Origin: a virus
Length of the DNA: 64,000 nt
IMG/VR virus record: IMGVR_UViG_3300032223_000402
Coordinates: 1-64,000 of that record
Direction: 5' to 3' (one strand)
Below, piece by piece: positions 1-61,687 of the stretch. The notes under the pieces are model-generated. The model did no database searches, was not told the origin of the DNA, and worked only from the letters and a program-made list of their open reading frames with translations. The translations under genes were made by a program, and so were the position numbers. How positions within the stretch are numbered: position 1 is the stretch's first letter; each line of letters starts with the position of its first letter.

Positions 1-2069
1 CGGAATCCTGGAATCTTATTAATTAAACTAAACAGAGCTTCTTTAAATGTCAAGAACCAGTCTTTGAATTTCAATCCCATCAATTTAAATGTATCAGAAA
101 TAACTTGTGTGTCACCACCTAACTTTTTAAATACCAATATCACTGCTGCCACTGCTGCCGCTACTAATAAGAATGGTGCAAGAGGTGCTAGTGCTGCCGC
201 ACCTAACGCTATCAAACTTGCAATCACCGGAATAGATGCTGCGGCTTTGGCAGCTTCCATAGCTACGTTAGCCCATCCAATTAATGTAGATGCAACTACA
301 TAAGTTCCGTAGGCTGCTAATCCAACAGCTAATACCTTTATAATAGGAGTTAGGTTATCCATTATAAATCCAGCTACAACTTTAAATGCTGGTACTACCC
401 AATTCATTATAAAATCGCCTAGAGCCTGTATTGTTGGTTTTAAATCATCAAAAGTCTGCGCAACTGCCGGTATAACATCTACTGCAAGGAATTCTGTAAA
501 TCCTTTGATTGCTGGAATCAATATATCATTGAAGAATCCTCCAACGCTTGCGATTGCAGGACCAAAACTGTCTATTAACGATCCAACAATAATCTGTACA
601 GATGTGCTGAGTACATTAAACAAAGGAACAACATAAGTCATTACAAAATTTGCTGCAAATTCAAATGCTTTCATTAACAAATCTAACATACCGCTGTTAG
701 CCAGAGCCATTTGGAAAGCGTTACTAAATGCTGCCAGCGACTGCTTGTTGCGTTCGATGGCTTCATTCATTTTATCTGTTTTTTCTTTGGCTTCTGCTTG
801 AGCTTTAGTTGCTTCTTTGTTAGCATTGACATTCAAAGAAGCTGCCGCGGTTGATGCCTGCATTGCACCGTCAAACTCTCGAGTAGCAGCAAATGTATCA
901 CCGTAGGTCTTCTGTGCTGTCTTACCAGCTGCTGCTAGAATCTGTCTAAATCTATCTTGTTCAGCATCTGTTAACGCTGTACCAGATTTCATTTTATCTC
1001 GCATACGTTGGAGCTCGTTCATAACGTCTCCGCCCATAATTGCGCCAACTCTCTGAGTTTCTTCTGATGTTAATGTTCCTGTTGCTAAGAAGTCTTTAAC
1101 AAATCCCTGCAACGGTGCTGGAAGTCCTAATACTGTTTTTCTAAATGAGTTTGCCGCAGCTTCATCCATATTAGCCGTAGCTGCTTGGAACTGTGCATCT
1201 TGTGCTAGTCGCTTGGCTTCTGCTTCCTTAGCTGAACGTTCTTCACCTGTGATCTTTGCCAAGGCATCCATCTCTTTGAGATAGCTCTTAGCACCTGCAA
1301 CCATTTCAGCATTGCTCTTGTTAGTTGAACGTCCTTGAGTTCTTAGTAGGTCACCGTACTTGGCAAGACCTTCATTGATTTCTGTAGTTGAGTATCCTAG
1401 TGCAAATAAATCTGAGCTAGTTGCCTGCAGTTGTCTTGAAACCTGTGCAAATCGTTTGGCACCACTTTCAGTAGTTCCACCAAAGGCCAACATACCGTTA
1501 CCATTCTTAGCAATAAGTCCGCCAAACTCTGCCATAGTCATACCAGCCTGGCTGGCTGCTGCTGAGAATTGATTTATGCTTCCGCTAAATGATGCTCCTG
1601 AAGAAGTAGCTTTCTGATAGGCATCAACTGCTCCCGTAGCAGCCGCTGCCACTGCTGAAAACATTGTTCCTAAAATAGGAACTTTGGCAAATATACTTGC
1701 TGCTTTATTCAGGTCGTTGCCAACATTAGCAAACTCTCTAATAAGATCTGTCGATCCTTCCGCTAGTCCAACAAATCCGCCAGCAACTATTCTAGCTGCG
1801 GTGTCAACTTTAGCTAGGGCATACCCAGCGGCCATTGCCATTCTTCCTAGTAATGCTCCGGCTTTGGCAGCTTTACTACCGCCGTCCTCTCCGTTACCAC
1901 CTCTTAAAGATATGTCTTTGCCATCGTCAACAGTCTTTTTACCACCGTCAGTAGACTTGTCAAACTTGCGCATTATTTTCAATATTTCTTGAAGCGTTGC
2001 TTCAGAAGCGGCATTCTTGGCCTCTACTTGACCAATTCCAGGAATGTCTATTAATACTGTTTGCGCCAT
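1..2069 (-). CDS. Tail tape-measure protein, N-terminal part (runs off window)
   Basis: The minus frame is open from an ATG at 2069 to the window edge, about 689 codons without a stop. The product starts MAQTVLIDIPGIGQV and is dominated by Ala/Gly-rich helical sequence, coiled-coil-like stretches and several long hydrophobic segments; the distal visible part, around residues 570-680, is strongly membrane-like. This composition, length and position beside baseplate genes are typical of phage tape-measure proteins, which set tail length and are ejected with the DNA. I see no peptidase motif in the visible part. The start follows a weak GGAAAA ribosome site. A GATAAATA late-promoter box lies about 52 bp upstream, divergent from the gp26-like gene. 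The assignment rests on architecture and context; the C-terminus is missing. Confidence 0.75.
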   Translation of the reverse strand, partial: MAQTVLIDIPGIGQVEAKNAASEATLQEILKIMRKFDKSTDGGKKTVDDGKDISLRGGNGEDGGSKAAKAGALLGRMAMAAGYALAKVDTAARIVAGGFVGLAEGSTDLIREFANVGNDLNKAASIFAKVPILGTMFSAVAAAATGAVDAYQKATSSGASFSGSINQFSAAASQAGMTMAEFGGLIAKNGNGMLAFGGTTESGAKRFAQVSRQLQATSSDLFALGYSTTEINEGLAKYGDLLRTQGRSTNKSNAEMVAGAKSYLKEMDALAKITGEERSAKEAEAKRLAQDAQFQAATANMDEAAANSFRKTVLGLPAPLQGFVKDFLATGTLTSEETQRVGAIMGGDVMNELQRMRDKMKSGTALTDAEQDRFRQILAAAGKTAQKTYGDTFAATREFDGAMQASTAAASLNVNANKEATKAQAEAKEKTDKMNEAIERNKQSLAAFSNAFQMALANSGMLDLLMKAFEFAANFVMTYVVPLFNVLSTSVQIIVGSLIDSFGPAIASVGGFFNDILIPAIKGFTEFLAVDVIPAVAQTFDDLKPTIQALGDFIMNWVVPAFKVVAGFIMDNLTPIIKVLAVGLAAYGTYVVASTLIGWANVAMEAAKAAASIPVIASLIALGAAALAPLAPFLLVAAAVAAVILVFKKLGGDTQVISDTFKLMGLKFKDWFLTFKEALFSLINKIPGF

Positions 2070-2137: not shown

Positions 2138-3004
2138 ATGAGTGAAATTAACAATCAGCAGCAACCAGTAGCAAAGAACCCTTTAGCAAATTGGTTCCGT
2201 CAGCCTAAGATCTATGTAAAATTACCTAGTCAGGGTAAGTTTTATCCTCCGGGTACGCTAGATGTCAGCAGCAACGAAGAATATCCTGTATATGCGATGA
2301 CTGCCAAAGACGAGCTGATGTTTAAAACTCCTGATGCGTTATTGTCTGGACAAAGCAGTGTAGAGGTTATCAAGAGCTGTATTCCAGCAATCAAAGATCC
2401 TTGGATGATGCCTAGCATCGACGTCGACTTTGCACTGATTGCCATACGTGTTGCTACCTATGGCGATAAAATGGAAATTGGTACTAAGTGTCCTGGCTGC
2501 GAAACTGAAAATGACTATGATGTTAACTTAACTAATTGGCTAGGAATGTTTAGTCAGTTTGTCTACAATGATACTGTGGTGATCGATCCGTTGATCATCA
2601 ATCTCAGACCTTACACCTATAAAGAACTGTCAAGAACTCAGATCAAAACACTTGAACAGCAAAAGATCTTTGCTATCATCAATGATGAAAAAATGGATGA
2701 TGAGCAGAAAGTTGAACAGTTTGGCAAAAGTTTTATCAAGATTACAGAACTAACTGTTGATGTTATCAGCGATTGTATTTCTAAAATTGAAACACCTAAC
2801 GGTGCTACCACTGACAAAAAACAGATCAAAGAGTTTATCAATAACTGTAGTAAAGATGTGTTTGACAGAATATCAGATCATCTTAAAATAATGAAAGAGC
2901 AAATTGAATTAAAAGCTCAGCACGTTCACTGTGAGGAGTGTGGCCAGGATTACGAAGTTCCAGTCACAATGGATCAGTCAAATTTTTTCGACGTAAAATC
3001 TTAA
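2138..3004 (+). CDS. gp26: Baseplate hub subunit, T4 gp26-like
   Basis: This is a 288-residue protein resembling the T4 gp26 baseplate-hub family. The N-terminal part (about residues 20-115) carries KIYVKLPSQGKFYPPG, a motif typical of this family in marine T4-like phages. Two CxxC pairs (C118/C121 and C265/C268) suggest a zinc-binding knuckle. The frame is open further upstream, but the ATG at 2138 is preferred: it follows GGAGAC and sits 31 bp downstream of a consensus late promoter, whereas the earlier start at 1997 would lie upstream of that promoter and overlap the divergent tape-measure gene. The last codons contain a slippery AAATTTT followed by a stem-loop, so part of the product is probably extended in the -1 frame. 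The family assignment is from recognition, not from a search. Confidence 0.8.
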   Translation: MSEINNQQQPVAKNPLANWFRQPKIYVKLPSQGKFYPPGTLDVSSNEEYPVYAMTAKDELMFKTPDALLSGQSSVEVIKSCIPAIKDPWMMPSIDVDFALIAIRVATYGDKMEIGTKCPGCETENDYDVNLTNWLGMFSQFVYNDTVVIDPLIINLRPYTYKELSRTQIKTLEQQKIFAIINDEKMDDEQKVEQFGKSFIKITELTVDVISDCISKIETPNGATTDKKQIKEFINNCSKDVFDRISDHLKIMKEQIELKAQHVHCEECGQDYEVPVTMDQSNFFDVKS

Positions 3005-3028
3005 ACTTATCTCTGCCGGAGATTTTAC
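2980..3028 (+). promoter_or_regulatory. Programmed -1 frameshift signal (slippery heptamer plus stem-loop)
   Basis: The heptamer A AAT TTT (2980-2986) is in the phase required for tandem -1 slippage in the gp26-like frame, six codons before the stop at 3002-3004. After a 6-nt spacer, GTAAAATCT (2993-3001) pairs perfectly with AGATTTTAC (3020-3028), a 9-bp stem with an 18-nt loop that contains the zero-frame stop. Heptamer, spacer and stem match the textbook layout of -1 frameshift sites. Slippage would continue into the frame ending at 3216. The stem is AT-rich, so efficiency is uncertain. Confidence 0.7.
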
Positions 3029-3216
3029 AAGAGTCGGAAAGGTTAGACAAAGAGGCGAGATCAATCAAGAAAGACTGTCTAAAACTCTGCTGGTATATGC
3101 GGGGTATTAGTTATGCTGAAGTTATGAATATGAGCTACGAAGAACGCGAGCTCATAGGTGAGATAGTCAAAGAAAATCTAGAAACAACTAAAAAATCTGG
3201 ACTGCCGTTCTTTTAA
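2986..3216 (+). CDS. -1 frame extension of the gp26-like protein (gp51-like / tail-assembly-chaperone-like tail)
   Basis: This 76-codon reading frame continues the gp26-like gene in the -1 frame and ends at 3216 with a KKSGLPFF tail. It has no credible start of its own. The only upstream initiators are a GTG at 2938 buried in gp26 without a suitably spaced ribosome site, and an ATG at 3097, past much of the conserved-looking region. The product is charged and helical (SERLDKEARSIKKDCLKLCWYM is cut here to SERLDKEARSIKKDC, then CWYMRGISYAEV). In T4-like phages gp26 and the hub-assembly catalyst gp51 act together, and in many long-tailed phages the gene beside the tape measure is a frameshifted assembly chaperone; this frame occupies that position. 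Expression by frameshift is my inference; gp51 homology is only suggested by position and size. It overlaps the convergent gene by 4 nt. Confidence 0.6.
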   Translation, partial: FRRKILNLSLPEILQESERLDKEARSIKKDCLKLCWYMRGISYAEVMNMSYEERELIGEIVKENLETTKKSGLPFF

Positions 3217-3602
3217 TGGAACTGTTCTTGGAAATCCAGCATAGCACGTTTTTGCTGTGCGTTTAGTTCTTGTCCGCGCAGCCCTGCTTCCAACGCTGAA
3301 ACCAAAATATCTTTATTGATATGGTTAGCTGGCTTCATTGATCCATTTTTAACCTGTGCTGTGATTTTTTTGAGATTGTTAACGTCTGCTGGTAACAGTC
3401 TATCACCGTTTGCAACAGCACCAACAACATCACGTCCTAATGCCCAGCTAAAGGGATTTTGAACTAGATTAGGATCAACAGCTTTCTCTGTGTCTTTGAA
3501 CCAAGTAGTTGGACTAAACAAATTCTTAGCCGCTGTTCTAGCTTTGTCAAAATGTTGAGGATCGCTAGTATCAACCTTACCAAGGACTTCATTGATACGC
3601 AT
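3213..3602 (-). CDS. Hypothetical structural-type protein beginning MRINEVLG
   Basis: This is a 129-residue protein of unknown function. The start is placed at the ATG at 3602, one base after the stop of the preceding gene (TAATATG), preceded by AGAAAG; a longer version starting at 3644 would overlap that gene by 41 bp. The N-terminus MRINEVLGKV resembles the MKITELLTES start of its upstream neighbour. Such M(K/R)I(T/N)E(L/V)L starts recur in virion-associated proteins of marine T4-like phages, though their role is not known to me. The body is helical and charged, with no recognisable enzyme motif. It is transcribed with the upstream gene from the late promoter at 4674-4681 and converges on the gp26/-1 frame gene with a 4-nt overlap and no terminator between. 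Confidence 0.6.
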   Translation of the reverse strand: MRINEVLGKVDTSDPQHFDKARTAAKNLFSPTTWFKDTEKAVDPNLVQNPFSWALGRDVVGAVANGDRLLPADVNNLKKITAQVKNGSMKPANHINKDILVSALEAGLRGQELNAQQKRAMLDFQEQFH

Positions 3603-3603
3603 A

Positions 3604-4641
3604 TTAGTACTTTCTAAAGATGCTGAATGTACCGTTGCGTACACCTTCAGCTACCATACGTTGTTTGGAACTGTGGATCTTAGAAGCTAGTTTCTCAGAA
3701 AGGTTAGTGCCTACTCTAATAATACTGTCGTTTGCTTGTGGAAGCAGTCTGTCACGTTCTGCATCAATCTCAGCCTGCGATGCCTGCGGAGCAGGAGCCG
3801 CTGCGGTTTTCTTATTGCGTGTACGTTTTGGCTTAGTTACTGGTTCACCAGCAGGTGCTGTTGTAGTTGCTGCATCTGCAGGTGCTGCTGTTGTAGCAGG
3901 AGGTGCTTCAGGAGCAGGTGCTGCGTCTGCTGCTGGAGCTGTATTTGTTTTGCTTACAGGAGCATTAGCCATTGTGTTTGGCTCTTTGCCTTGTAGAGTG
4001 TTTGCCATTGAACCAAATGCGCCTGCGCCTGCATCACCAGCTGCTGCATCAGGTGCTGGTTTAGCTGCTTTGTCAGTCTGTGCTTTCTTGGCCATAACTG
4101 CATCTAGATTCTTTTTAACGCTGTTTAGGTCACGTGTTCTTAGTTGTGGTAACAGTTTGTTAATCTGACCAACTGTTACCTTTGCTTGTTTTTCTTCAGC
4201 TGCTGCTTTTGCAGGATCAGCAGCAGGAGCTGTTGTATTACCTGGCGCTGCATTTTGAGTCGTGTTTACATTTACGTTAGTTGGAGTAGGGTTACCGCCA
4301 TTACCGCCCATACTGTTACCAGTACCATTAGGGCCAGCTGCTCCGCCAGCACCACCTTGTCCTTGACCGTTGGCTGCACCTTGAGCTGCGTCTGCTGGTT
4401 GTTCTGCATCAGCGGCATCTGGATATGGATCAGCATCGCCAGCAACTGTGGCTTTACCTGTGGCGTATCCTTTCTTAAATGCTCGGCCCATTCCGGCAAC
4501 ACCACCAGCTACAGCACCAACTCCGTGTGCTACTCCACCAGCTAGTTTGCCGACTCCAGTGCCAAGAGCACCTAAAGGGCCTTCTTCAAGATGTTGCATT
4601 TCTTGAATTTCTGATTCAGTTAATAATTCTGTTATTTTCAT
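3604..4641 (-). CDS. Ala/Pro-rich low-complexity virion-type protein (MKITELLTES start)
   Basis: This is a 345-residue protein. Residues 1-15 form an MKITELLTES motif, about 20-60 are Gly-rich and hydrophobic, and about 65-275 are an Ala/Pro/Thr/Asn/Gly low-complexity region. After a basic patch (KPKRTRNKK), the C-terminal 70 residues are helical and charged (ERDRLLPQANDSIIRVGTNL). No enzymatic motif is visible. A GATAAATA late-promoter box lies 33 bp upstream, so late, probably virion-associated expression is expected. The Ala/Pro-rich composition creates several long spurious open frames on both strands, which I do not regard as genes. The function is unknown; a flexible internal-head or tail-associated protein is possible but not demonstrated. 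Confidence 0.6.
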   Translation of the reverse strand: MKITELLTESEIQEMQHLEEGPLGALGTGVGKLAGGVAHGVGAVAGGVAGMGRAFKKGYATGKATVAGDADPYPDAADAEQPADAAQGAANGQGQGGAGGAAGPNGTGNSMGGNGGNPTPTNVNVNTTQNAAPGNTTAPAADPAKAAAEEKQAKVTVGQINKLLPQLRTRDLNSVKKNLDAVMAKKAQTDKAAKPAPDAAAGDAGAGAFGSMANTLQGKEPNTMANAPVSKTNTAPAADAAPAPEAPPATTAAPADAATTTAPAGEPVTKPKRTRNKKTAAAPAPQASQAEIDAERDRLLPQANDSIIRVGTNLSEKLASKIHSSKQRMVAEGVRNGTFSIFRKY

Positions 4642-20048: not shown

Positions 20049-23000
20049 ATGGCAAAGTCAATTTACCCACAAAGTCAATTACCAATTAGAAGATCAGTAG
20101 AGTTATTGCCAACAGTATTCCAAACTGGTGCTAATTCTAAATTTACATCTGCGGTCATTGATCCTTTGATACAACCTGGTGTCTTACAGAAAACTGTAGG
20201 ATATATTGGTCGTAGATATGGAAAAACTTATAGGGGTAGTGATATCTATCTCGATACTGATAATACTCTGCGTAGCAGGTATCAGTTAGAGCCTGGCGTT
20301 ACATTTAAAGAAAATCAAAAGATATTAGATTTTTATGACTATCTTGATTTTAAAAATCAAATAAAGTTTTTTGGCAATGATATTGACAGAGATGATTTTG
20401 TAACAAGCCAACAACATTATTCTTGGAACCCGCCGATTGATTGGGACAAGTTTATTAATTTCCGTGAATATTACTGGGAACCAAACGGTCCACCACCTGT
20501 GCCTGTTTACGGGCAATCGGGAAAAATTACCAGCAGCTATAAAGTTATGCTGGGAACACAATCGTCTTTTGTGATTACTCCAGACGGTGCTACTAATAAT
20601 CCTACACTAACATTTTATAGAGGCCAAACCTACAAATTTAAAATTAATGCCCCTGGACAAGGATTTGTAATTAGAACAAATTATGACACAGGATCATTAC
20701 GCTATCTCCCAGCCCAAGGATACGCCGCCGGATCGGTGGTGTATTTTGATAATAAACTTTGGAGAGCCAAAGTAACCATCTCCCCAGGCGATGGTAGCAC
20801 TATTGATATTAACACACAAGACTGGGAACCGTTGGGCCTAGCTGACCATACAACAGTATTAGATTACAACCAAGGTGTAACCAACAACGGGATTGAAAAC
20901 GGAACATTGACATTTAAAGTTCCTTTTGATGCTCCAGATGTTTTATTTTATCAAAGCAAAGTTGATCCAGATAGATTTGGTCAAATTGTTATTACCAATG
21001 TTATTGAGAACTCAAAAATAGATATCAATAAAGAAGTTATTGGAAAATTAGAGTTTACCAGCAGCAACGGTATAGTCTTCACTAACGGATTAATTATAGA
21101 ATTTAAAGGGCAGGTGACTCCGTCGATGTACGCCAACGACAGTTGGTTGATAGAAGGTGTTGGCAGCGGAATTACATTGACACGCTATCTTGATTTAATT
21201 GTTCCTGTATTGACTAAAGATACTCCGGAAGTATTATTCGACAATGAAGGATTTGACACACAGCCTTTTGATGATGCAACAGCATATCCTTCGCAGTTAG
21301 ACTATATTACTATTGCAAGAAACAGCAAGGACTCTAATCCTTGGTCTAGATATAATCGTTGGTTTCATAGAAGTGTTTTAGATTATGCACACGGGATTCG
21401 TGGGACTGATTATGAAGCTCCAGAAAGTGCAAGAGCAAAGCGACCAATTATTGAATTTCAACCAAACATTCAATTGTTTAATCACGGCGCTGAATCAAAG
21501 ATAACAGTTGATTACATCGATACCTATACCTCTGATGTGTTTTCAAATATTGAAGGCAGTACTGGATATAACGTAGACGGTGAATTCTTATTCGAAGGAG
21601 CGAGATTATTAGTTATAGCAGACACCGATAGCCTAGCTAACAATAAAATTTACACTGTTCATTTTGTTACATTTAACGGCAATACGCAAATTAATCTTAA
21701 AGAAGCAAGCGACGGAGAATCTTTAGCAGGGCAGGGTGTTCTTGTTAGACGAGGAATAGCGAATGCAGGGCTGATGTACCACTTCACAGGATCAGAATGG
21801 GTAGTTAGCCAAAAGAAATCAACAGTTAACCAGCCTCCGTTATTTGATGCTTTTGATGATTCAGAAGTTAGTTTTTCTGATTCTACAACGTATCCAATTT
21901 CTACATTCGCTGGAAGCACATTGTTAGAATATAAAGTAGGAACCAGTATTGTTGATCAGCAGCTAGGATTTAGTTTAAGCTATCTTAACATCGACAATAT
22001 TGGTGATATACAGTTTAATTGGACTTGGGATACAGATTCTTTCTATTATACAGAATCACAAAAAGTTAACACTAAAAAAATATCAACTGGTTATTACAAA
22101 CAAAACGGATCGCTAGCTAATGGATGGATTGCAACAGATTTAACATACATTCAACCGCTGATTGACAGCGTTGTTACTCCGTCAGCTACTAATGTTGTAA
22201 CATTAACAACTTTAGATTGGGAATCTGTAACCGACAACAGTAAATTAATCATTAATTTTTATCTTAACGGTGAAAAATTAATCAACAATCCTTATACACG
22301 TGATCGAGGAACATTTACATTCCAGAATAGTTTTGCAGTTAATGATGTTGTTTCTGTAAAAATTATCACCGACGTTGAACACGTCACAGGTTATTTTGAA
22401 ATTCCTTCCGGATTAGAAAAGAATCCGATGAATGATTCGCTGGCAACCTTTACATTTGGCCAAGCAGCGGATCACGTTATTTCTGCATTAGAATTTAATG
22501 ATAACTTTACTGGATCTTTGCCGGGCAGTTCTAATCTTCGAGACATTGTCGACTATCAACAACACGCCAAGCGATTTTTAAAACACGCTGGACTTAATCC
22601 TGTGTCTATTGCATTATTGTGCGACAAGACAAACAACATAATTAAATCTTTACAATATGCAAAATCTCAATATACAGAATTTAAAAATAATTTCTTGGCT
22701 AGATCAACTGAAATAGATTTTGTAAAATCTATTCCTGATTTTGTTGATAACATCCTTGAAGAACTTACAAGAATAAAAACAGTCGACACCCCATTCTCTG
22801 ATTCAGATATGATCGGGTCAGGAGCCTTTAACACTATCAGTTACACTGTTGAAGATACCGGTATCAAGACATTTGCTTTATCTCAAGCATTTAGTCTCAA
22901 TGAATTAAGCAGAAGAGCAGTTTATGTTTACATTAACAGTCGTCAGCTGTTGAATACTTTAGAGTATGAATTTAATCCGACATTTGGTTTTGTTATTATT

Positions 23001-26000
23001 AAAAATGATTTGTTGGAAGGTGATAAAATTGAAATAAGAGAATACATTTCCACGGCTCATTGTTTTGTTCCACCAACACCAACATCTCTCGGGCTATACA
23101 AAAAATATACTCCGATGATATTTGTAGATGATACTTATCGCGAACCTAAAACAGTTATTCAAGGACACGACGGTAGCCTTACTGTTACCTACGGTGATTA
23201 CAGAGATGATTTATTATTAGAATTAGAATATCGTATCTATAACAACATTAAACAACAATATGATCCGGCAATTTTTGATAACGATGCGATTCTTGGCGGT
23301 TACTACGGTAATGCGTTATACACCAAATCACAACTTGATCAAATTGTTGAGCAAGAATTTTTAAGATGGGTTAAGAATACAAATATTGATTATACTAATA
23401 ACAATTATTTTATTGACACCGAACCATTTACCTACACCTATAGCAATATGTCTGATCCATCAGGTACACAGAATCTACCAGGCTATTGGAGAGGTGTGTA
23501 TCAGTGGGCATTTGATACCGACAGACCGCATCGTTGTCCTTGGGAAATGTTAGGATTCAGCGAAAAACCAGACTGGTGGGATATACAATATGGATCAGCA
23601 CCGTACACCAGTGGAAACTTGTTGCTATGGGAAGATTTAGAAGCAGGTATAATTCGCCAAGGTCCCCGAGCAGGTACCTATGACAGATACAAACGACCAG
23701 GATTAGTAAATTATATTCCGGTAGACATCGAAGGTAACATAGTCAATCCATTAGATTCTGGGTTTGCAGGAAACTTTGTTTTAATCAATAACAGAGGTCC
23801 GTTTAAGTTAGGAGACATCGGACCAGTTGAATATGCTTGGAGATCAAGTTCTGAATGGCCATTTGCTGTGGCTATTGCATTATGTTTAATGAAACCTTTT
23901 GAATTTATCACAGACAGCTTTGATAGATCTAGAATTAAATTAAACAACCTAGGACAAACAGTTAATGTTGACACAGGACTGTTTATAACGTTAGAAGATT
24001 TAGTAATTCCACGCCCCGGCGTTGATCTAGCATCAGGGTTGGTACAATATCTAGTAAGCTATGCACAATCTAAAGGATTATCTCTTGATGTTATTGAAAG
24101 CAAAATCAAAGGACTAGATGTTAACTTGTCAACAAGACTAAGCGGCTTTGTTGACAAAGCACAACAGAAATATCTATTAGATAGCAAAAATCCAAAATCG
24201 ACCAGTGGTAGCATTTATATCCCTGCTGAAAACTACGATATTATTTTTAATACCAGCGCACCGATCGCAACAGTTTCATACAGTGGAGTTATTGTAGAAA
24301 AGAGTGAAACTGGGTGGGTAATAACAGGCTATGACGATATACATCCCTACTTCAATACATTTGAAGCACAAGAAAGCCAGGCCGATCCGCTGTTGTCGAT
24401 AGGCGGAATAAGTGAAAACTTTGTTGAATGGGCCGCCGGTACAGATTTTGCCAACGGCATCATTGCAAGATATAACAATACATATTACCGTTCTTTAAGT
24501 ACGCATCAAGATCTAGACGCCAACGGGCTGAGCAATGCAACTCTATGGAAGAAGCTACCAAAACTTCCATTAGTGGGAGCGGTAGAAGCATATAAGAGAA
24601 GAGCATTTAATACTTTTGAAATTACAAAAGTTGGCTACGGAACAAACTTTACAACAATTCAAGGAGTTGTAGATTTCTTGTTAGGATATGAAGCCTATCT
24701 AAAATCTCAAGGATTCTTGTTTGAAAATTATGATCCAGATAATCAGGTAAGTCAAGACTGGACTACTAGTTGTAAAGAATTTATGTTCTGGACAAAACAT
24801 AATTGGGCGGTAGGCTCTATTATTTCGTTGAGCCCTTCATCATTAAAAATCGACATTCAAACTCCTGTTGGGGTTGCTGACAACCTATTAGATGGATTCT
24901 ACGATTATCAGGTATTGAAGAGTGACGGAAAACCTTTACAACCTCAGTATATAAATGTTAATCGTGAATTCCAAGAAATCACTGTTGAAACAACAAATAC
25001 CACTGACGGGATTTATTTCCTTAGATTGTATTATGTTCTAAAAGAACACGTTGCTGTGTTTGATGATAGAACAGTCTTCAACGATGTAATCTACGATAAA
25101 GCAACAGGATATCGCCAACAGAGGATTAAATCTCAAGGTTTTAGAACTACCGATTGGTACGGTGACTATACAAGTCCTGGTTTCTTATTTGACAACGTTG
25201 ATATAGCTGTCTGGGAGCCATTTACAGATTACAAGTTGGGAGACATTGTTGCTTATAAATCTTACTACTGGACCAGTATGCAGAACCAGATGGGCCAAGA
25301 AGTCTTTGATTATACAATGTGGACCAAGTTAGACAGTGTTCCTGAAAAACAGTTGGTGTCAAATTTTGATTATAAGATCAATCAATTTGACGACTACTTT
25401 AACGTTGCCTCTGAGGGCATCGGTAACACACAGCGCGATCTTGCAAGACATACAGTGGGATATCAAACACGAGATTATCTACAAAACCTTGCACAAGATC
25501 CTATAACACAATTTCAGCTATATCAAGGATTTATTAGAGAAAAAGGCACAGCAAACGCCATACATAAGGTCTTTGATAAACTAAGTCGATATGATGGAGA
25601 CAGTGTCGTATTAGATGAAGAATGGGCATTTAGAGTTGGTCGAGTTGGTGGATATGACCAACTAAGTCAAATTGAAATTCAGTTGTCTAAATCCAATTTC
25701 TTAATTAATCCGCAGCCAATAGTAGCAGTTAACTCTGTTCCTAGTTACAGCAGCGACAAATATTATAGGGTTCCAGAATCGGCATTTACCTTTGCACCGA
25801 TACCGTATACAACAGATATACATCCGCTGTCGTTAGAAGCTGAACCAACTCAGGTTGCAGGTTATGTAAAATTAGATCAGACAGATTATGCTGTAGGAAC
25901 AGCAGATGACATCTTGAATTTAGATATTTCTACAGTTTTAGAAAATGCAAACATTTGGTTAACTTTTAATGTCCCATCTTGGACTGTGTGGAGATTAAAT

Positions 26001-29000
26001 GCTTCTACAGTATTCACAGTAACCGGAGTATCTAAATCAGGGACTAGTGTAACAGTTACTTTAACAAGACCGCATAGTATTAATATCGGTGATGTTGTTG
26101 GATTTAGAAATATTACAAACTTAACAGGATTCTTTAAAGTTTCAGCTGTTGATACGTTAACAATTACCGTAACTGTTTCAGCGTCCGCCGAGACTCCTGT
26201 TCTAGGAACCGATGTTTATCAAATCAATTTGTTTACTCCTGTACGTTTTTCAAATTATGGAACAGTTGATCAAGAAGCTGCTGCACTATTAGCAGAAGGA
26301 TCAAAACTTTGGCTAGACGACAACGGTAACGGTCTATGGGAAGTTATTGAAAAATACAAGCAATACACCTCAACAAAGATTGTTGAGTTTGGAACAACTA
26401 CACCGCTACGTGCTGGTTCTAAAGTAATCTATAACGATTCCACAAAAGAAATTATTGTAGGTATCCCAGAATCTGGAATCGTTGTAGCATATATTGAATC
26501 AACTGCAGGCCTGATTCCAAAACAAATTATTCTTCCGCCTGATGCATTTAAGACACAGGCAAATGGTTCCTTTGGGTCGTCGATTGCAATTAGCCCAGAT
26601 AACAAATGGATGGCGATTGGCTCTCCCCTAGCAAGCGGAATACACAGCAACTTTAGAGGATTGTTTGTGCCTACAAACAATTATTTCATCGACGATATCG
26701 TATTGTATGATGGTGATCTATGGCAGGCTGTTAGTGACACACGCGGTGACGGCAGCACAATTAATATCTATACTCAAGATTGGGTACCAGCAACAGTAAA
26801 CCTTGCAGCAGGATCTGCGTTAGGTGATGGTTTCTATCATCAAGGTATGGTTACATTGTACGAGTGGTCAAACCAACAATGGGAAATTAGAGAAACGTAT
26901 GCCAGCCCACGTCCCGCAGCTAACGAAATGTTTGGCTCAAACATTTCTCTGTCTAGCGATGGTTTAAATTATAAAATGGCAGTTTCTGCGCTCGGAGCAG
27001 TTGATAACACTGGTAGGGTTTATATCTATTCAGGTACCCCTACAACTACTATTGATCTAACAGGAGCAACAGTTACAGTTACTGAATGGACACACCAATC
27101 AGGACAATATATGTTGCCTCAACAGGCAGCATTAATCGACGACGGTTCAACAAAAGTTCCAACTATTGCCAATAATCAATTGGTTGAAATTTTAAAAATC
27201 AACGATCAATATGGTTACAGTGTTGCATTGAATATGTCTGGCACTGTGTTAGCAGTTGGTGCACCTAACAGTGATGGACAATATTTTGCAAACTATAGAG
27301 GAATATGGAGACCGGATCACAACTACTCAGGCGGTGATGTTGTACAATACGGGCCATTATACTATACATTAGATATTAACTCTGCTGGTAGCACCGGCGA
27401 CGTGCCAGACGTTGGAAGCCCTTGGGTGTCAATGGGAGACAGTACACAGCAACATTCTGGTAAGGTATTTTTATATCAATTAGTTAATGGTGCTTATGTC
27501 CTAAAACAAACAATTGACAATGCTACATTGAATAGTATTAGTGACATATCCGACTCGACAGAAACGATCGGTTCTGGTGATAAGTTTGGTTTTGCAGTTG
27601 CGTTGGATTATTCAGGAACATCATTAGTTGTAACCAGTCCAATGGCAAATTTAAATCTTGAATATAAAGGCGCTGCCTATGTATTCAGAACAGATGATCT
27701 AACAACATTTAAATTTAGATTAAAACAAAAACTTAGAAACTTTGAAAGTTATGCCGACGAATATTTTGGTCAAAGCGTAGATATTACAAGCAACACTGAA
27801 AAAATTATTGTTAGCTCAAAAAATACTCCTGCGAACGGTTCAGGCGATGCCGGAGCGGTTTATGTATTTGAAAGAAAATCTGATTATTATTTCTTGACAG
27901 AAAAGTTAATCGATACTCTATCACCTTTTGAATCTTTTGGTTACAGCGTTAGCTGTCAAGGTTCTGCGATAGCCGTTGGTTCTCCAGATTACTCTACCAC
28001 AGGTATGGTAAGACTGTTTAGAAAAGATCCAACTACAAATTCTTGGAATACACTTGCTTCTCAAAGTCCTGTGGTAGACTACACAAAATTAAGAAGTATT
28101 GCATTATATGATGCTGTTAAAGATATTAAATTAGAAGACCTTGATATCATTGATCCAGCTAAACTTAAAATCTTAGATGATGCAGAACAAGAGATATCTT
28201 TTAAGACGCCGTTTGACCCTGCAATATACTCAGTAGGCACTGATAATCAAATAGTGATTCCGGAGCAAGAGTGGACCAAAGAAAATGTTGGAAAACTATG
28301 GTGGAATATTTCTACAGTTAAGTGGAATTACTACGAGCAAGGTGATGCTCCTTATAGAATAGCAAACTGGAGTTCGTTGGCAGCAGGCTCAAGCGTAGAT
28401 GTATACGAATGGGTTGAAACTGTGTTGCTTCCAAGCGAGTGGGCTGCATTGGCAGATACCAACGATGGCATTGCTAACGGTATTTCTGGTCAACCATTGT
28501 ATCCCAATGACAATGTTTATGCTGTAAAAGTTTTATACAATTCATCGACAGGGTTGCCAACTAATACATTATATTATTACTGGGTAAAGAGCAGCGTGTT
28601 AGTTCCTGCAAATACTCCAGGTAGAAGAATTCCAGCATCAACAGTTGCATCTTATATTAAAAATCCAGCAGGTTCTGGAAAACCGTTTGCGGCAATAATT
28701 TCTTCTGATACAGTATTACTGTACAATATCTTGTCAATTTTAAAATCTGATACCGCATTATTAAACATTGAATATCGCAAAGACGACAGCAATCTTAATG
28801 CTATCCATAATGAGTATCAGTTAATTGTAGAAGGCGATGCAAGAGGTCTTATTGCTAAATCCTTAGAAACTAAATGGATTGATAGTCTTGTTGGTTATGA
28901 TAGTGTTGGTAACCGCGTTCCTGATCCTTCATTGCCTGCAAGACAACGCCACGGTATTTCTTTTAGACCAAGACAAAGTATGTTTATTGATCGAGTAGCA

Positions 29001-32000
29001 GCTCTTAAGATAACCATATTCAACATCAACAACTATTTGTTGTTGGTCCCTTACACTGATGTTGCAGATTTTACGTATCTATACGCAGTTGATCCAGTAC
29101 CAAACGCTTTGCTATCTCTATATGATGTGTCAATTGATACCTACGAAGAATTAACAACAGTTGGTACTATTCGTGTTAAACCGGCAGTGTTAAGCGTTAA
29201 CATTGTTAACAGTGAAGTTGATACGATTGATATTGTATCGGCAGGGTTTGGATATAAAGTTGCGCCTCCGATCGTAATCGACGGCGACGGCTCGGGTGCG
29301 ACAGCTACATTGACTATTGACAATCAAGGCAGAGTAACCTCTGTAACGGTTGTTACTAGAGGTAAAAAATACACAGTGGCTAATGCTATTGTTCGTCCTT
29401 TCTCTGTATTGGTAAATCAAGATGGTACAGCAAACGGCATCTGGAGCATCTATGCCTGGGATTCAGTTAAACAGACATTCTACAGAAGTCGTTCTCAAGA
29501 CTACGACACTACTCGTTATTGGTCGTACATCGATTGGTGGGCAGTAGATTCAAAACCAGTAGTGCCAGTAAGGCTCTATGACGAAACATCAAGAATCGTT
29601 AAAGAAATTCAAAATATCTCAGATGAACCAAGCATCTCTGTAAAGATAGGTGATTTAATTCGAGTTAAAGAATACGCCAACGGCGGTTGGGCTGTGTTCT
29701 TAAAAGTAGCCGACGGCGGAACATTTGCAGACAATTATCAACAAGTCGGCCGAGAAAAAGGTACGATTCAGATCAGCGATGCGTTCTATAATACTTCTAC
29801 TTCAGGAATTGGATATGACAATACACGTTCATATGACACTGGGTCATATGACGTTGAAAATGCCAAAGAATTAAGAAATATTCTGCAGGCAACTAAAGAA
29901 AATGCCTATAATCTAGGTCTAGGAAACATCTGGAACAACTTGTTCTTTATATCCATACGATCAGTTTTAACAGAACAAAAATATGTTGATTGGTTGTTTA
30001 AAACAAGTTTATTAAAAGCAACACACAATGTTGGTGCTTTTGAACAAAAACTAAACTATAAGAACGACAATCTCGAAAGTTTCCAAGATTATATCAACGA
30101 AGTTAAACCATACAGAACAACTGTAAGAGAATACATCAGTCGATACGATACTGTCGAGCAGTACGGTTCTGCGGTAGCTGATTTTGATATTCCGCCTGCA
30201 TTCTCAACAGTGGAAGGTAAGGTAGCAGCCATTACCTCTACAGACGAGCGTCTTGGATCTTATCCTTGGAAATACTGGACTGATAATCATACATATTCTC
30301 TAACAGATATCCAAATTTCTTATGCTGGTACAGACTACACATCGCCACCGACTGTGGTAATTGATGGTGACGGTACTGGAGCAACAGCACAAGCCTACAT
30401 ATCCAATGGGGCGGTTTCTGGAATAGTAGTTCTTAATGTGGGTTCGGGTTATACCAAGGCTACAGTTACACTGGTCGGAGGTAACGGAAATAGTGCAAAT
30501 ATTGCCAAAGCTGTTGCTATCTTAGGCGATACAAAAGCCAGAACATTTAATATGACAATGAAGTTTGATAGGGTGTCAAAAGAAGGGTTGTTTAAATCGT
30601 TCTCACACAGTCAAACATTCACAGCCTCGGGTAATTCTGCAGTATTTAATTTAGAATATGCCCCGACAAGAGATAAATCTAAAATTAAAATTTTAAAAAA
30701 TAGTCAGGTTGTCTATAAAGACGAATACTCTATTAGTTTGTTTAAGACCAACGAAGACGGATATAATATTTTAAAAGGTAAAATTATATTTGCTACAGCA
30801 CCGGCTAAAGGCGATGCAATTACAGTATCCTATGAAAAGAATGACGAATTATTAGATGCTGTTAATAGAATAACAAAATATTACCTAACAGATCCAACAT
30901 CAGATAATGCAGTAGGTATGGCAGGTAACGAACTCAATCAGCTAATGACCGGTTTTGATTTTGGTGGAGTACAAGTACAAGGCACAACGTTTGAAGTCAC
31001 TGGCGGATGGGATGCGCTTCCTTGGTTTACAGACAGCTGGGATAGCGTTCAATCAGCAGCCGATATTTATTATGTTTCAGATGGCAGCACCACTGAATAT
31101 ATCTTTGACAAAGCTCCGGCAAGCGGACAGGTTATAACGATCTACATAAAACGTGTAGGGCAAGCAAATGCTATTAGGATTGATGATCCGTTATACAACA
31201 TTGCCGGAGATTCAGCAATGGTTACAAATCCTAATGCTGTGATTCCAACGTTTGTTGGTGACGGTTCTACAAGAGTTATTCCTATTGGAATTTATGTCCA
31301 CACAGATGCTGGAGACATATTGATCTTTAGACCAGAAGACAGTGACGGTTCTGTAACAATTAATGATCCTAATATTGTCGATACTAATCTCAGCGGAGGC
31401 ACATTGGCAGCAATGGCAGGTGCATATACTACGGCTAACGGTGTTGCCGCTGAAGAAATTGTTATTGAAGGCGGCGAGTTTATCAGCCCAGAACAAGTTT
31501 CTGCAACTGAAGAAAATGTTCCAGGCCAAGTACTTGATAGTGTTTCGATCAAAGTATTCCAGAGTTCATTGAGCGGGCCGAGTCCGATCCAAGCGAGAAC
31601 TATTGTAAGCGATGGAGTAACTAGAACCTATGATATTGGAATTCAGGTTTTAGAATATTCATCGGTTCTTGCTTATGTTAATAAGTCTCTCAAAATATTA
31701 GGTACAGATTACAACATTCAATTAGCTAGCCATCAGATAACATTTAATACTGCACCAACAGCAGGTAACGTAATTGAGATTGTTGCTGTTGGAATCGGCG
31801 GCCACGCTCTGTTAGATTATCAACAGTTTATCGCCGACGGTGAAACTAATTTATTCTTAACCAATGCTGTTTATATAGATACAAAATCAGTGTTTGTTAG
31901 TGTTAACGGTGTTTATCAAGATACTGGGTTTATCAATAGCACCGGAGTTGTTGATTCGACTAACAGAACATTGATTCAATTTGGTACTACTCCTAATGTC

Positions 32001-33620
32001 AACGATATTATTGAGATAATAGCATTAGGATCTAACACAGCATCGGTATTAGACGGATCGTCGATTGTAAAAGTAAATCAACAGATCTTTATATTTGATG
32101 GTAGCACACGTTTTTATAATCTAGATAATTCTGTAATTCCAGATCCATTATCAGCTGGCCCAGTAAAACAAAGTGAAAGCAATTTTAAAAACATCGTCAG
32201 TTCCTCAGCAGCATCTTCGATGGTTGTTGAAATCAACGGGAGGGCGTTAAAAGGTCCCGATACAACTTACTTTGTTTATGACGGAATTCAAAATCAGTTT
32301 GTGTTAGGTGTAGATCCTTTTGTACCACCAGGAGCAATCTTAACCAGCAACATTAAATGTTATATTAACGGTCGTTTGTCTCAATTTATTCAAGACTATG
32401 TTTATGACGGTAGTGCTAAGACAATTACTTTCGCTAAAACATCTTTGACTGTCGGTGATATAATTAAAATTGAAACAGACTTTTTGTCTGAATACAGAAT
32501 TGAAGGAACACAACTACACATTTTAAGTAATGTGGGCCTCGGTGAATTAATTAATGCAACAATTAAAGTTACCTGGTTTAACGAATATCCTTCTATGAAT
32601 TTAATCTCAGATGAATTCACAGGCGGTAAAGTTCAGTATCAGCTAGCTCACTTACCGTTGTCCTCAAGCTATGTTTGGGTTTATAAAAACGGAAACAGAC
32701 TGACACAAGATCAAGACTATTATGTTGTTGTTGAACGAGGTGTTGTTTACTTAAAAGTGGCTTCAACTAACTCTGACACAATTAAGATCTTGTTATTTGG
32801 TTCTGGAATATATAGATTACCAAGCGGTTTTGAAATTTACAAAGATATGCTAAACGTATATCATTTCAAACGTTATTCCATCACCGACGATATTAAGTTG
32901 ACTAAAGATCTTAATTATTACGATCAGACAATCACAGTAAGTGATGCTTCTAGTTTATCAGATCCTATTCCGACAAGAAATATTCCAGGAATGATTCTAA
33001 TAAACAACGAAAAGATCGAATATATGTCAAAACAAGGTAACGTATTAAGTCAGCTACGCCGTGGAAGTGTAGGAACGTCAATTGCTACATTACACCTTGC
33101 TGGTAGTTTTATAGTAGATGAAGGGCCAACAGAAACGTTGCCGTATAACGAAACACAAGATAGACAAGACTTTACAAGTAACGGTACTCCGGACGATTCG
33201 ACTATTGGATCTGCACAAACCATTGGACCTCTAGATTTTACACCTGCTCAAGGAAAACGTTCTGCTTGGCACAGAGATACTATCCCAACAGGATTTGGGC
33301 CCTGTGATCAGATTGAAGTATTCGTGGGCGGTCGTCGTTTGCGTAAAGATCCAGTTGATGTTTACAGCGAAGAATTAGGATCTCACAGTCCATCTGCTGA
33401 TAAAACGCTTGAGGCAGAATTTTCCGTTGACGGATTAACACCTTATATTCGTCTAACAACCACAGTTCCTGCTGGAACTAGAATCACAATTATTAGGAGA
33501 TCTGGTAAAATTTGGTATGAAAGAGGCAATACAACCGCCAGCAAGGGCGTTACATTGCTAGAAAACAATACAGCTATATCTAATTTCATAGCTCAACGTA
33601 CATCGAAATTGCCAGAATAA
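20049..33620 (+). CDS. Giant 4523-residue baseplate-wedge protein in gp7 position
   Basis: A single uninterrupted frame covers 13.6 kb. The N-terminal 150 residues (IYPQSQLPIRRSVELLPTVF) resemble the gp7-position baseplate protein of marine T4-like phages. Visible modules include: cupredoxin-like FYRGQTYKFKINAPGQGFVI (around 187); six FG-GAP-like repeats (about 2170-2650; for example NGSFGSSIAISPDNKWMAIG, YGYSVALNMSGTVLAVGAP, FGFAVALDYSGTSLVVTSP), suggesting an integrin-type beta-propeller; two GDGSGATA/GSGYT-type domains (about 3047-3120 and 3419-3485); and seven or eight tandem beta-sandwich repeats with a D-G-x-T start and a G-D-x-I-x-I end (about 3520-4260). It ends with a segment typical of marine phage structural proteins (NIPGMILINNEKIEYMSKQG). 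T4 gp7 is 1032 residues. Most of the body is probably peripheral baseplate or host-contact structure; fusion of gp7, gp8 or gp10 functions is possible. Confidence 0.7.
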   Translation: MAKSIYPQSQLPIRRSVELLPTVFQTGANSKFTSAVIDPLIQPGVLQKTVGYIGRRYGKTYRGSDIYLDTDNTLRSRYQLEPGVTFKENQKILDFYDYLDFKNQIKFFGNDIDRDDFVTSQQHYSWNPPIDWDKFINFREYYWEPNGPPPVPVYGQSGKITSSYKVMLGTQSSFVITPDGATNNPTLTFYRGQTYKFKINAPGQGFVIRTNYDTGSLRYLPAQGYAAGSVVYFDNKLWRAKVTISPGDGSTIDINTQDWEPLGLADHTTVLDYNQGVTNNGIENGTLTFKVPFDAPDVLFYQSKVDPDRFGQIVITNVIENSKIDINKEVIGKLEFTSSNGIVFTNGLIIEFKGQVTPSMYANDSWLIEGVGSGITLTRYLDLIVPVLTKDTPEVLFDNEGFDTQPFDDATAYPSQLDYITIARNSKDSNPWSRYNRWFHRSVLDYAHGIRGTDYEAPESARAKRPIIEFQPNIQLFNHGAESKITVDYIDTYTSDVFSNIEGSTGYNVDGEFLFEGARLLVIADTDSLANNKIYTVHFVTFNGNTQINLKEASDGESLAGQGVLVRRGIANAGLMYHFTGSEWVVSQKKSTVNQPPLFDAFDDSEVSFSDSTTYPISTFAGSTLLEYKVGTSIVDQQLGFSLSYLNIDNIGDIQFNWTWDTDSFYYTESQKVNTKKISTGYYKQNGSLANGWIATDLTYIQPLIDSVVTPSATNVVTLTTLDWESVTDNSKLIINFYLNGEKLINNPYTRDRGTFTFQNSFAVNDVVSVKIITDVEHVTGYFEIPSGLEKNPMNDSLATFTFGQAADHVISALEFNDNFTGSLPGSSNLRDIVDYQQHAKRFLKHAGLNPVSIALLCDKTNNIIKSLQYAKSQYTEFKNNFLARSTEIDFVKSIPDFVDNILEELTRIKTVDTPFSDSDMIGSGAFNTISYTVEDTGIKTFALSQAFSLNELSRRAVYVYINSRQLLNTLEYEFNPTFGFVIIKNDLLEGDKIEIREYISTAHCFVPPTPTSLGLYKKYTPMIFVDDTYREPKTVIQGHDGSLTVTYGDYRDDLLLELEYRIYNNIKQQYDPAIFDNDAILGGYYGNALYTKSQLDQIVEQEFLRWVKNTNIDYTNNNYFIDTEPFTYTYSNMSDPSGTQNLPGYWRGVYQWAFDTDRPHRCPWEMLGFSEKPDWWDIQYGSAPYTSGNLLLWEDLEAGIIRQGPRAGTYDRYKRPGLVNYIPVDIEGNIVNPLDSGFAGNFVLINNRGPFKLGDIGPVEYAWRSSSEWPFAVAIALCLMKPFEFITDSFDRSRIKLNNLGQTVNVDTGLFITLEDLVIPRPGVDLASGLVQYLVSYAQSKGLSLDVIESKIKGLDVNLSTRLSGFVDKAQQKYLLDSKNPKSTSGSIYIPAENYDIIFNTSAPIATVSYSGVIVEKSETGWVITGYDDIHPYFNTFEAQESQADPLLSIGGISENFVEWAAGTDFANGIIARYNNTYYRSLSTHQDLDANGLSNATLWKKLPKLPLVGAVEAYKRRAFNTFEITKVGYGTNFTTIQGVVDFLLGYEAYLKSQGFLFENYDPDNQVSQDWTTSCKEFMFWTKHNWAVGSIISLSPSSLKIDIQTPVGVADNLLDGFYDYQVLKSDGKPLQPQYINVNREFQEITVETTNTTDGIYFLRLYYVLKEHVAVFDDRTVFNDVIYDKATGYRQQRIKSQGFRTTDWYGDYTSPGFLFDNVDIAVWEPFTDYKLGDIVAYKSYYWTSMQNQMGQEVFDYTMWTKLDSVPEKQLVSNFDYKINQFDDYFNVASEGIGNTQRDLARHTVGYQTRDYLQNLAQDPITQFQLYQGFIREKGTANAIHKVFDKLSRYDGDSVVLDEEWAFRVGRVGGYDQLSQIEIQLSKSNFLINPQPIVAVNSVPSYSSDKYYRVPESAFTFAPIPYTTDIHPLSLEAEPTQVAGYVKLDQTDYAVGTADDILNLDISTVLENANIWLTFNVPSWTVWRLNASTVFTVTGVSKSGTSVTVTLTRPHSINIGDVVGFRNITNLTGFFKVSAVDTLTITVTVSASAETPVLGTDVYQINLFTPVRFSNYGTVDQEAAALLAEGSKLWLDDNGNGLWEVIEKYKQYTSTKIVEFGTTTPLRAGSKVIYNDSTKEIIVGIPESGIVVAYIESTAGLIPKQIILPPDAFKTQANGSFGSSIAISPDNKWMAIGSPLASGIHSNFRGLFVPTNNYFIDDIVLYDGDLWQAVSDTRGDGSTINIYTQDWVPATVNLAAGSALGDGFYHQGMVTLYEWSNQQWEIRETYASPRPAANEMFGSNISLSSDGLNYKMAVSALGAVDNTGRVYIYSGTPTTTIDLTGATVTVTEWTHQSGQYMLPQQAALIDDGSTKVPTIANNQLVEILKINDQYGYSVALNMSGTVLAVGAPNSDGQYFANYRGIWRPDHNYSGGDVVQYGPLYYTLDINSAGSTGDVPDVGSPWVSMGDSTQQHSGKVFLYQLVNGAYVLKQTIDNATLNSISDISDSTETIGSGDKFGFAVALDYSGTSLVVTSPMANLNLEYKGAAYVFRTDDLTTFKFRLKQKLRNFESYADEYFGQSVDITSNTEKIIVSSKNTPANGSGDAGAVYVFERKSDYYFLTEKLIDTLSPFESFGYSVSCQGSAIAVGSPDYSTTGMVRLFRKDPTTNSWNTLASQSPVVDYTKLRSIALYDAVKDIKLEDLDIIDPAKLKILDDAEQEISFKTPFDPAIYSVGTDNQIVIPEQEWTKENVGKLWWNISTVKWNYYEQGDAPYRIANWSSLAAGSSVDVYEWVETVLLPSEWAALADTNDGIANGISGQPLYPNDNVYAVKVLYNSSTGLPTNTLYYYWVKSSVLVPANTPGRRIPASTVASYIKNPAGSGKPFAAIISSDTVLLYNILSILKSDTALLNIEYRKDDSNLNAIHNEYQLIVEGDARGLIAKSLETKWIDSLVGYDSVGNRVPDPSLPARQRHGISFRPRQSMFIDRVAALKITIFNINNYLLLVPYTDVADFTYLYAVDPVPNALLSLYDVSIDTYEELTTVGTIRVKPAVLSVNIVNSEVDTIDIVSAGFGYKVAPPIVIDGDGSGATATLTIDNQGRVTSVTVVTRGKKYTVANAIVRPFSVLVNQDGTANGIWSIYAWDSVKQTFYRSRSQDYDTTRYWSYIDWWAVDSKPVVPVRLYDETSRIVKEIQNISDEPSISVKIGDLIRVKEYANGGWAVFLKVADGGTFADNYQQVGREKGTIQISDAFYNTSTSGIGYDNTRSYDTGSYDVENAKELRNILQATKENAYNLGLGNIWNNLFFISIRSVLTEQKYVDWLFKTSLLKATHNVGAFEQKLNYKNDNLESFQDYINEVKPYRTTVREYISRYDTVEQYGSAVADFDIPPAFSTVEGKVAAITSTDERLGSYPWKYWTDNHTYSLTDIQISYAGTDYTSPPTVVIDGDGTGATAQAYISNGAVSGIVVLNVGSGYTKATVTLVGGNGNSANIAKAVAILGDTKARTFNMTMKFDRVSKEGLFKSFSHSQTFTASGNSAVFNLEYAPTRDKSKIKILKNSQVVYKDEYSISLFKTNEDGYNILKGKIIFATAPAKGDAITVSYEKNDELLDAVNRITKYYLTDPTSDNAVGMAGNELNQLMTGFDFGGVQVQGTTFEVTGGWDALPWFTDSWDSVQSAADIYYVSDGSTTEYIFDKAPASGQVITIYIKRVGQANAIRIDDPLYNIAGDSAMVTNPNAVIPTFVGDGSTRVIPIGIYVHTDAGDILIFRPEDSDGSVTINDPNIVDTNLSGGTLAAMAGAYTTANGVAAEEIVIEGGEFISPEQVSATEENVPGQVLDSVSIKVFQSSLSGPSPIQARTIVSDGVTRTYDIGIQVLEYSSVLAYVNKSLKILGTDYNIQLASHQITFNTAPTAGNVIEIVAVGIGGHALLDYQQFIADGETNLFLTNAVYIDTKSVFVSVNGVYQDTGFINSTGVVDSTNRTLIQFGTTPNVNDIIEIIALGSNTASVLDGSSIVKVNQQIFIFDGSTRFYNLDNSVIPDPLSAGPVKQSESNFKNIVSSSAASSMVVEINGRALKGPDTTYFVYDGIQNQFVLGVDPFVPPGAILTSNIKCYINGRLSQFIQDYVYDGSAKTITFAKTSLTVGDIIKIETDFLSEYRIEGTQLHILSNVGLGELINATIKVTWFNEYPSMNLISDEFTGGKVQYQLAHLPLSSSYVWVYKNGNRLTQDQDYYVVVERGVVYLKVASTNSDTIKILLFGSGIYRLPSGFEIYKDMLNVYHFKRYSITDDIKLTKDLNYYDQTITVSDASSLSDPIPTRNIPGMILINNEKIEYMSKQGNVLSQLRRGSVGTSIATLHLAGSFIVDEGPTETLPYNETQDRQDFTSNGTPDDSTIGSAQTIGPLDFTPAQGKRSAWHRDTIPTGFGPCDQIEVFVGGRRLRKDPVDVYSEELGSHSPSADKTLEAEFSVDGLTPYIRLTTTVPAGTRITIIRRSGKIWYERGNTTASKGVTLLENNTAISNFIAQRTSKLPE

Positions 33621-45332: not shown

Positions 45333-45683
45333 ATGGAAGACCAACTTCAAAAAGCCTTAGACTTTTCTAACTATAGACAGTCTTTTGCAATCCAACGTAA
45401 GACACTCAAAGAAAAAATTGAAGCCAAACTAACCTATGGGTTTAATGGCGGCATTTTTAAAATCAATAGAGAGCTTGTAAGTTTTGTTCAAACACTTTTG
45501 GACAAAGAAAGACGATCTGGAGTAGTGTTATTGGATCAAAACGATAATCCGGTTATCGTAGACGATTTAGAAAAATTTCAAGAAGAAATACTCACTCGAT
45601 ATTTTGAGGTTACTAACGAGTATTTTGAACAATACCAAAATCTTAAAAAAAGTAGAACAGTTGAAAAATTGTTAGACCTATGA
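45333..45683 (+). CDS. Conserved small phage protein, unknown function
   Basis: This is a 116-residue helical, charged protein (MEDQLQKALDFSNYRQSFAI; later LTYGFNGGIFKINRELVSFV; ending KKSRTVEKLLDL). The ATG at 45333 is chosen because GGGAGA lies 7 nt upstream; an in-frame TTG at 45321 is less likely. Proteins like this occur between tail-fibre and accessory genes in other marine T4-like phages, with no assigned function. Its stop overlaps the next start (ATGA), so it is coupled to the glycosyltransferase genes. Confidence 0.6.
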   Translation: MEDQLQKALDFSNYRQSFAIQRKTLKEKIEAKLTYGFNGGIFKINRELVSFVQTLLDKERRSGVVLLDQNDNPVIVDDLEKFQEEILTRYFEVTNEYFEQYQNLKKSRTVEKLLDL

Positions 45684-61635: not shown

Positions 61636-61649
61636 ACCATATTTATTGA

Positions 61650-61657
61650 TATAAATA
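61650..61657 (+). promoter_or_regulatory. T4-type late promoter (TATAAATA) for the sugar dehydrogenase
   Basis: This is an exact TATAAATA 30 bp upstream of the ATG at 61688, in the 52-bp gap between divergent genes. It indicates late expression of the dehydrogenase. Confidence 0.7.
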
Positions 61658-61687
61658 TCTGGTCAGTTTATTTTTCAAAGAGGTTAT

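Follow-up and report, generated by a model that had tools for sequence, protein, structure and literature searches.

A predicted −1 frameshift at a conserved poly-T slip site would yield short and long forms of a gp26/gp51-type tail-assembly chaperone

What does a gp26-like phage gene encode when, at its end, a second reading frame stays open far beyond its stop codon? We encountered this question in a stretch of viral DNA of 64,000 nucleotides (positions 1 to 64,000 of the 66 kb virus record IMGVR_UViG_3300032223_000402, hereafter called the window), for which an initial annotation had proposed a programmed −1 frameshift joining the two frames. From the comparison with related loci we conclude that this single locus very probably gives rise to two forms of a gp26/gp51-type tail-assembly chaperone by −1 frameshifting.

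The zero frame (positions 2138–3004, plus strand) encodes 288 amino acids, the putative short form of a tail (hub) assembly chaperone, and has a GGAG ribosome site upstream of its start. In Pfam, the protein matched PF12322 (1.2e-18, 68.1 bits compared with a curated cut-off of 24.5) and no other family; the known Phage_TAC families were unmatched. It also matched PHROG 150, ‘baseplate hub’ (4.6e-23). NCBIfam gave no useful match, and neither sequence nor structure searches found a PDB match to a solved chaperone fold. In a viral fold library, small uncharacterised phage proteins were the best matches (E 3.4e-3) and annotated chaperones matched weakly.

The gene ends with TCA AAT TTT TTC GAC GTA AAA TCT TAA, with the stop codon at 3002–3004. 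Two overlapping heptamers lie in this stretch. A AAT TTT, put forward initially as the slip site, is present at 2980–2986 in exactly the phase for −1 slippage, and T TTT TTC (U UUU UUC) follows in the same phase at 2983–2989. Slippage on either heptamer would produce the identical fusion protein (...SNFF-RRKIL...). From the slip point, where the C at 2989 is re-read, the −1 frame (2989–3216, plus strand) is open to 3216, i.e., for 75 residues and for 70 codons beyond the zero-frame stop. The predicted long form is thus a fusion of 359 amino acids (...DQSNFF-RRKILNL...). Its junction-spanning peptide would be AQHVHCEECGQDYEVPVTMDQSNFFR, with AQHVHCEECGQDYEVPVTMDQSNFFDVK as the unshifted counterpart, and ILNLSLPEILQESER attached to gp26 would be a further diagnostic peptide of the fusion.

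Within the window alone, a heptamer with a −1 extension is indecisive. Among the 54 ORFs of at least 100 amino acids, an in-phase heptamer at the end and a long −1 extension recur in two further cases, apparently as a result of an overlap with the following gene in the −1 frame. The case rests on conservation among homologues and on compensatory changes in the stem described below. On the minus strand, the ORFs 3604–4641 and 3213–3644 overlap in different frames; a frameshift between them was considered and dropped by eye, since the latter ORF can start at its own ATG just past the stop of the former, and they are probably two ordinary genes.

Conservation of the junction was assessed on 167 distinct IMG/VR junctions among the matches listed, sampled by similarity to PF12322 queries, with no more than 80 loci per scan. 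Collections were scanned with subsets of 22 diverse gp26 relatives, as the full set was too divergent; Phosso, PVA8 and bacterial-genome scans contributed few extra loci. In the first comparison, T TTT TTC stood in phase in all of 17 IMG/VR loci, PA5oct, Phosso and Atu_ph07, and their −1 frames were open, with alignable tails. The same heptamer and an open −1 frame were also present in RaK2, PBECO4, Munch, BF, GAP32, Vibrio 2.275, XaC1 and Hallingskeid, and XacN1 and RAS14 have T TTT TTT at the junction. Of the 167 distinct junctions among the matches listed, all carried T TTT TTC in phase. From the codon use of the same genes, this heptamer would be expected in about 8–13% of loci, and Phe-Phe can be encoded otherwise. 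The loci are related, and a joint probability of this conservation is no formal test; the pattern nevertheless spans very distant groups.

These counts also bear on the possibility that a sequencing or assembly error, i.e., one lost base, had split a single gene. Homopolymer runs are error-prone and a −1 relation fits a one-base error, but the −1 relation, the stop and the heptamer recur in the 167 distinct metagenome junctions among the matches listed and in the complete genomes of 20 phages from diverse sources. This refutes an artefact, to which we assign a negligible probability.

Which of the two heptamers would be the slip site? The bases that precede T TTT TTC across the junctions are AA, AG, AC, GA, CA, CG, GC or TC, and the residue before Phe-Phe is any of seven (N, S, A, H, T, D or R), its codon always ending in T. 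Since the preceding bases vary, conservation does not extend to A AAT TTT. It may still be argued that in the window's clade slippage takes place mainly on A AAT TTT, with T TTT TTC kept for another reason. AA stands ahead of the T run in 65 of the 74 window-like junctions, and A AAT TTT has the longer spacer to the stem, 6 nt compared with 3 nt from T TTT TTC; a 3-nt spacer is shorter than usual and counts against our preferred explanation. Yet the remaining window-like loci, with AG, AC, GA or CA, still keep the −1 tail. Moreover, A AAT TTT is missing from nearly all cyanophage-like loci, where T TTT TTC is invariant, and the product is the same either way. We regard predominant slippage on A AAT TTT as improbable and take T TTT TTC as the conserved slip site. 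The proposed −1 frameshift thus stands, with T TTT TTC in place of the heptamer originally chosen, which is common in the window's clade but not conserved.

The second element is a putative stimulatory hairpin at 2993–3028 on the plus strand. As first described, its 9-bp stem (GTAAAATCT at 2993–3001 and AGATTTTAC at 3020–3028) is perfect, 6 nt separate the stem from A AAT TTT, and the loop holds the stop codon; this 18-nt loop (3002–3019) opens with the zero-frame TAA. We examined the stem in 59 distinct window-like sequences. Here, 91.5% of cells paired, compared with 28–55% when the stem was slid, and 35 stem cells had changed on both sides, compared with 7.8 expected by shuffling. The covariation score was 0.228 as opposed to 0.124 in shuffled data, and none of 500 shuffles reached it. 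The fold of 2983–3045 had a z of −2.8. Compensatory changes hence back the stem in the window's clade, and the picture is less clear elsewhere: single folds of PBECO4, GAP32, XacN1 and KVP40-type relatives showed no unusual fold beside the slip site. As folds outside the window's clade are mixed, the hairpin is not universal. We also observed that the predicted fold of 2983–3045 extends beyond this stem, the T run itself pairing with the downstream GUCGGAAAGG. Chance as an explanation of the whole signal was rejected on the conservation at all 167 distinct junctions among the matches listed together with the compensatory stem changes.

Among the matches listed, the −1 frame was open at every junction, with tails of 57–77 amino acids. 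In tails of equal length (75 codons), the −1 frame was free of stops in 61 of 61, and the other two frames were always stopped. Substitutions concentrate at third codon positions throughout the tail, also in codons 14–35, upstream of the ATG at +108, where we counted 4265, 2819 and 7114 by codon position. Judged by this substitution pattern, the −1 frame evolves as coding sequence. AlphaFold2 predicted a helical domain for the tail, with a pLDDT of 91.6.

The −1 frame might instead be a small gene in its own right, expressed by translational coupling or by re-initiation where the frames overlap; it is annotated in this way in Phosso, PBECO4 and cyanophages. In some relatives an ATG coincides with the stop or lies close to it, i.e., ATGA in Phosso and Atu_ph07, and many cyanophage-like loci have one at +9, +18 or +57. 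However, the start positions differ among lineages, and a coding pattern of evolution is seen already in codons 5′ of the candidate starts. In the window, the only candidates up to +120 from the slip point are a GTG at −51 and an ATG at +108, neither conserved in homologues, in line with the initial view that the frame has no credible start of its own. A search for a conserved start found that 15 of the 74 window-like junctions have no ATG, GTG or TTG before +105, and an SD-like 4-mer preceded a candidate start up to +60 in just 15 of the 167 loci among the matches listed. An independent gene would, in addition, leave two things unexplained: the invariant T TTT TTC, and why a separate gp51 is not required in one-gene genomes. 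We therefore consider it very unlikely and favor the tail as the C-terminal domain of a frameshifted long form.

Public annotations of the tail are variable. It is unannotated in PA5oct and a separate gene from varying starts in Phosso, PBECO4 and GAP32. In S-RIM8, Melnitz and HTVC008M it appears as a ‘baseplate hub assembly catalyst’ of 45–47 amino acids. Small genes labelled gp51 baseplate hub assembly catalyst in cyano- and pelagiphages (positions 3232–3369, 3223–3366 and 2253–2390 of our loci L037, L036 and L225) were seen to correspond to a truncated −1 tail of gp26. The annotated small gp51 genes of these phages are probably misannotations.

How does the tail relate to T4 gp51? Both T4 gp26 and T4 gp51 match PF12322, with an additional C-terminal stretch in gp51. 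With hhalign, the fused long form aligned to T4 gp51 over its full length, tail included, at 99.6% for the cyanophage set and 96% for the jumbo set; the jumbo −1 tail set alone matched the gp51 C-terminus weakly (12.6%). PHROG 634, ‘baseplate hub assembly catalyst’, matches residues 147–246 of T4 gp51 and also the −1 tails of S-RIM8, Melnitz, PVA8 and ZPAH1, i.e., of cyanophage, Methylophilales-phage and KVP40-type origin. By these profile comparisons, the −1 tail and the C-terminal domain of T4 gp51 are homologous, the match being weak for jumbo tails alone. T4 gp26 served as a control: it ends with ...EFFELL, and the Phe pair at the equivalent place is written TTC TTT, which is not slippery.

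Two PF12322 genes were found in 4 of 28 complete phages (T4, KARL-1, Phi1 and RB43), without a poly-T heptamer at the end of gp26. All 24 complete phages with a single PF12322 gene had a −1 tail, and 20 of the 24 had a T TTT TT[C/T/G] heptamer. From the gp51-like tail and this alternation of one-gene and two-gene phages, we propose that gp26 and gp51 would equal the short and the long tail-assembly chaperone. The suggestion that T4-type gp26/gp51 follow the G/GT logic is thus borne out, with the correction that the second frame corresponds only to the C-terminal domain of gp51 and does not constitute a gp51 gene. In Ackermannviridae and Vibrio K382, the −1 tail beyond the gp26-like stop is open as well, but a canonical heptamer is missing; another mechanism may therefore exist there. 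Their junctions (3200–3290, 2260–2350, 2240–2330 and 2180–2270 of loci L040, L223, L227 and L224) read ATT TTC ATT TAA or CTT TTC AAG TAA.

In a tree of 37 rows, all eight separate gp26 and gp51 proteins fell into one group (99/98), and frameshifting lineages stood on both sides of the midpoint root; RB43 gp26 formed a long branch. The simplest reading of this midpoint-rooted tree would be a single duplication in core Straboviridae, with frameshifting as the ancestral state. A broader proposal, to which we give somewhat less than even credence, would hold that the U UUU UUC frameshift is ancestral across the whole T4 superfamily (jumbo phages, Kyanoviridae, pelagic and KVP40-type phages), that a single core-Straboviridae duplication fixed gp26 and gp51, that the ‘truncated gp51’ of cyanophages are not genes, that the window's clade has a new stimulatory element in its covarying hairpin, whose loop holds the stop, and that such breadth is unpublished.

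We infer slippage, the slippage rate and chaperone action, as follows. Most ribosomes would translate the zero frame to the stop at 3002–3004 and release the short form of 288 amino acids, the presumed counterpart of T4 gp26 or TAC-N. A fraction of the ribosomes may be slowed by the hairpin at 2993–3028 and slip back by one base in the T run, so that the Phe tRNAs on TTT TTC would re-pair on TTT TTT. The shifted ribosomes would read the −1 frame to 3216 and complete the long form of 359 amino acids, the presumed counterpart of T4 gp51 or TAC-NC. If lambda G/GT is a guide, short forms in large numbers may cover the tape measure protein, and the long form presumably uses its helical C-terminal domain to attract subunits of the tail tube or hub.

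The divergent neighbor (1–2069, minus strand), which runs off the window, had no Pfam or PHROG match; it resembles a RaK2 protein annotated as ‘similar to ... tail tape measure’ (E 4e-7) and the Phosso neighbor (2e-8). We thus regard it as a putative tape measure protein on this weak similarity. Its position is not lambda-like, as it lies on the opposite strand and not downstream; the divergent arrangement is common to RaK2-type phages. In HTVC008M, an annotated tape measure gene lies just downstream of the chaperone locus. Elsewhere in the window, a single ORF of 4523 codons (20049–33620) probably encodes a giant virion protein, and a cassette of glycosyltransferase-like, radical-SAM-like (49927–52456 and 55626–57812) and nucleotide-sugar-enzyme-like ORFs was noted by eye beside structural genes at 45680–62920.

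The supposition that no such signal had been described for T4-type gp26/gp51 is doubtful. As cited by the PRFect paper (PMC10885494), Vladimirov, Gautam and Davidson (2022) reported that some T4-like phages carry the short and the long chaperone as separate genes and do not rely on frameshifting; as cited by the Adele paper (PMC12846349), the same work reported poly-T slippery sequences in T4-like chaperone genes. Going by these citing passages, the short/long chaperone logic for T4-like phages is already published. In open full texts, prior reports of a gp26/gp51 frameshift came up only as such citations of Vladimirov et al. (2022) and in the Adele paper itself. Sullivan et al. (2010, PMC3037559) described cyanophage gp51 as about 20% of the usual length, with about 200 residues missing from its N-terminus; this would be explained if this gp51 were the frameshifted end of gp26. 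Our reading would unify gp26 and gp51 as two versions, short and long, of a single chaperone. Most T4-like lineages examined would obtain both by frameshifting, and T4 and its close relatives from duplicated genes; the poly-T signal is common to marine, pelagic and giant T4-like phages. Many annotations in marine and jumbo phage genomes would be corrected accordingly, and the requirement for a short:long ratio would become testable in one-gene and two-gene phages.

The tail assembly chaperones G/GT of lambda and E/E′ of P2 are made as a short form and a −1 frameshifted long form; tail assembly chaperone frameshifts were reportedly treated by Xu, Hendrix and Duda in 2004. The chaperone locus shares with these systems two predicted forms, a heptamer close to where the first frame ends, a small C-terminal domain predicted to be helical and a putative tape-measure-like gene nearby. 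It differs from them in that its first frame is a PF12322 member for which no Phage_TAC match was detected, its slip site is U UUU UUC and its tape-measure-like gene is divergent and not directly downstream. T4 gp26/gp51 resemble the locus in PF12322, in the end of gp26 at the equivalent Phe-Phe and in a gp51 with a counterpart of the −1 tail. In contrast to this locus, where one gene would give both forms, T4, KARL-1, Phi1 and RB43 use two genes, and the poly-T heptamer is absent. The ‘gp51’ of cyanophages and pelagiphages (CDS of 45–47 amino acids) is, like our −1 tail, found directly after gp26 with T TTT TT[C/T], but is annotated as a truncated gene of its own and not as the frameshifted end of gp26. 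Finally, the TAC genes of Pakpunavirus and Andersonviridae also have a poly-T −1 slip site at the end of the chaperone gene and an unannotated −1 extension (PMC12846349); their motif is GTTTTT, and they belong to a different phage group.
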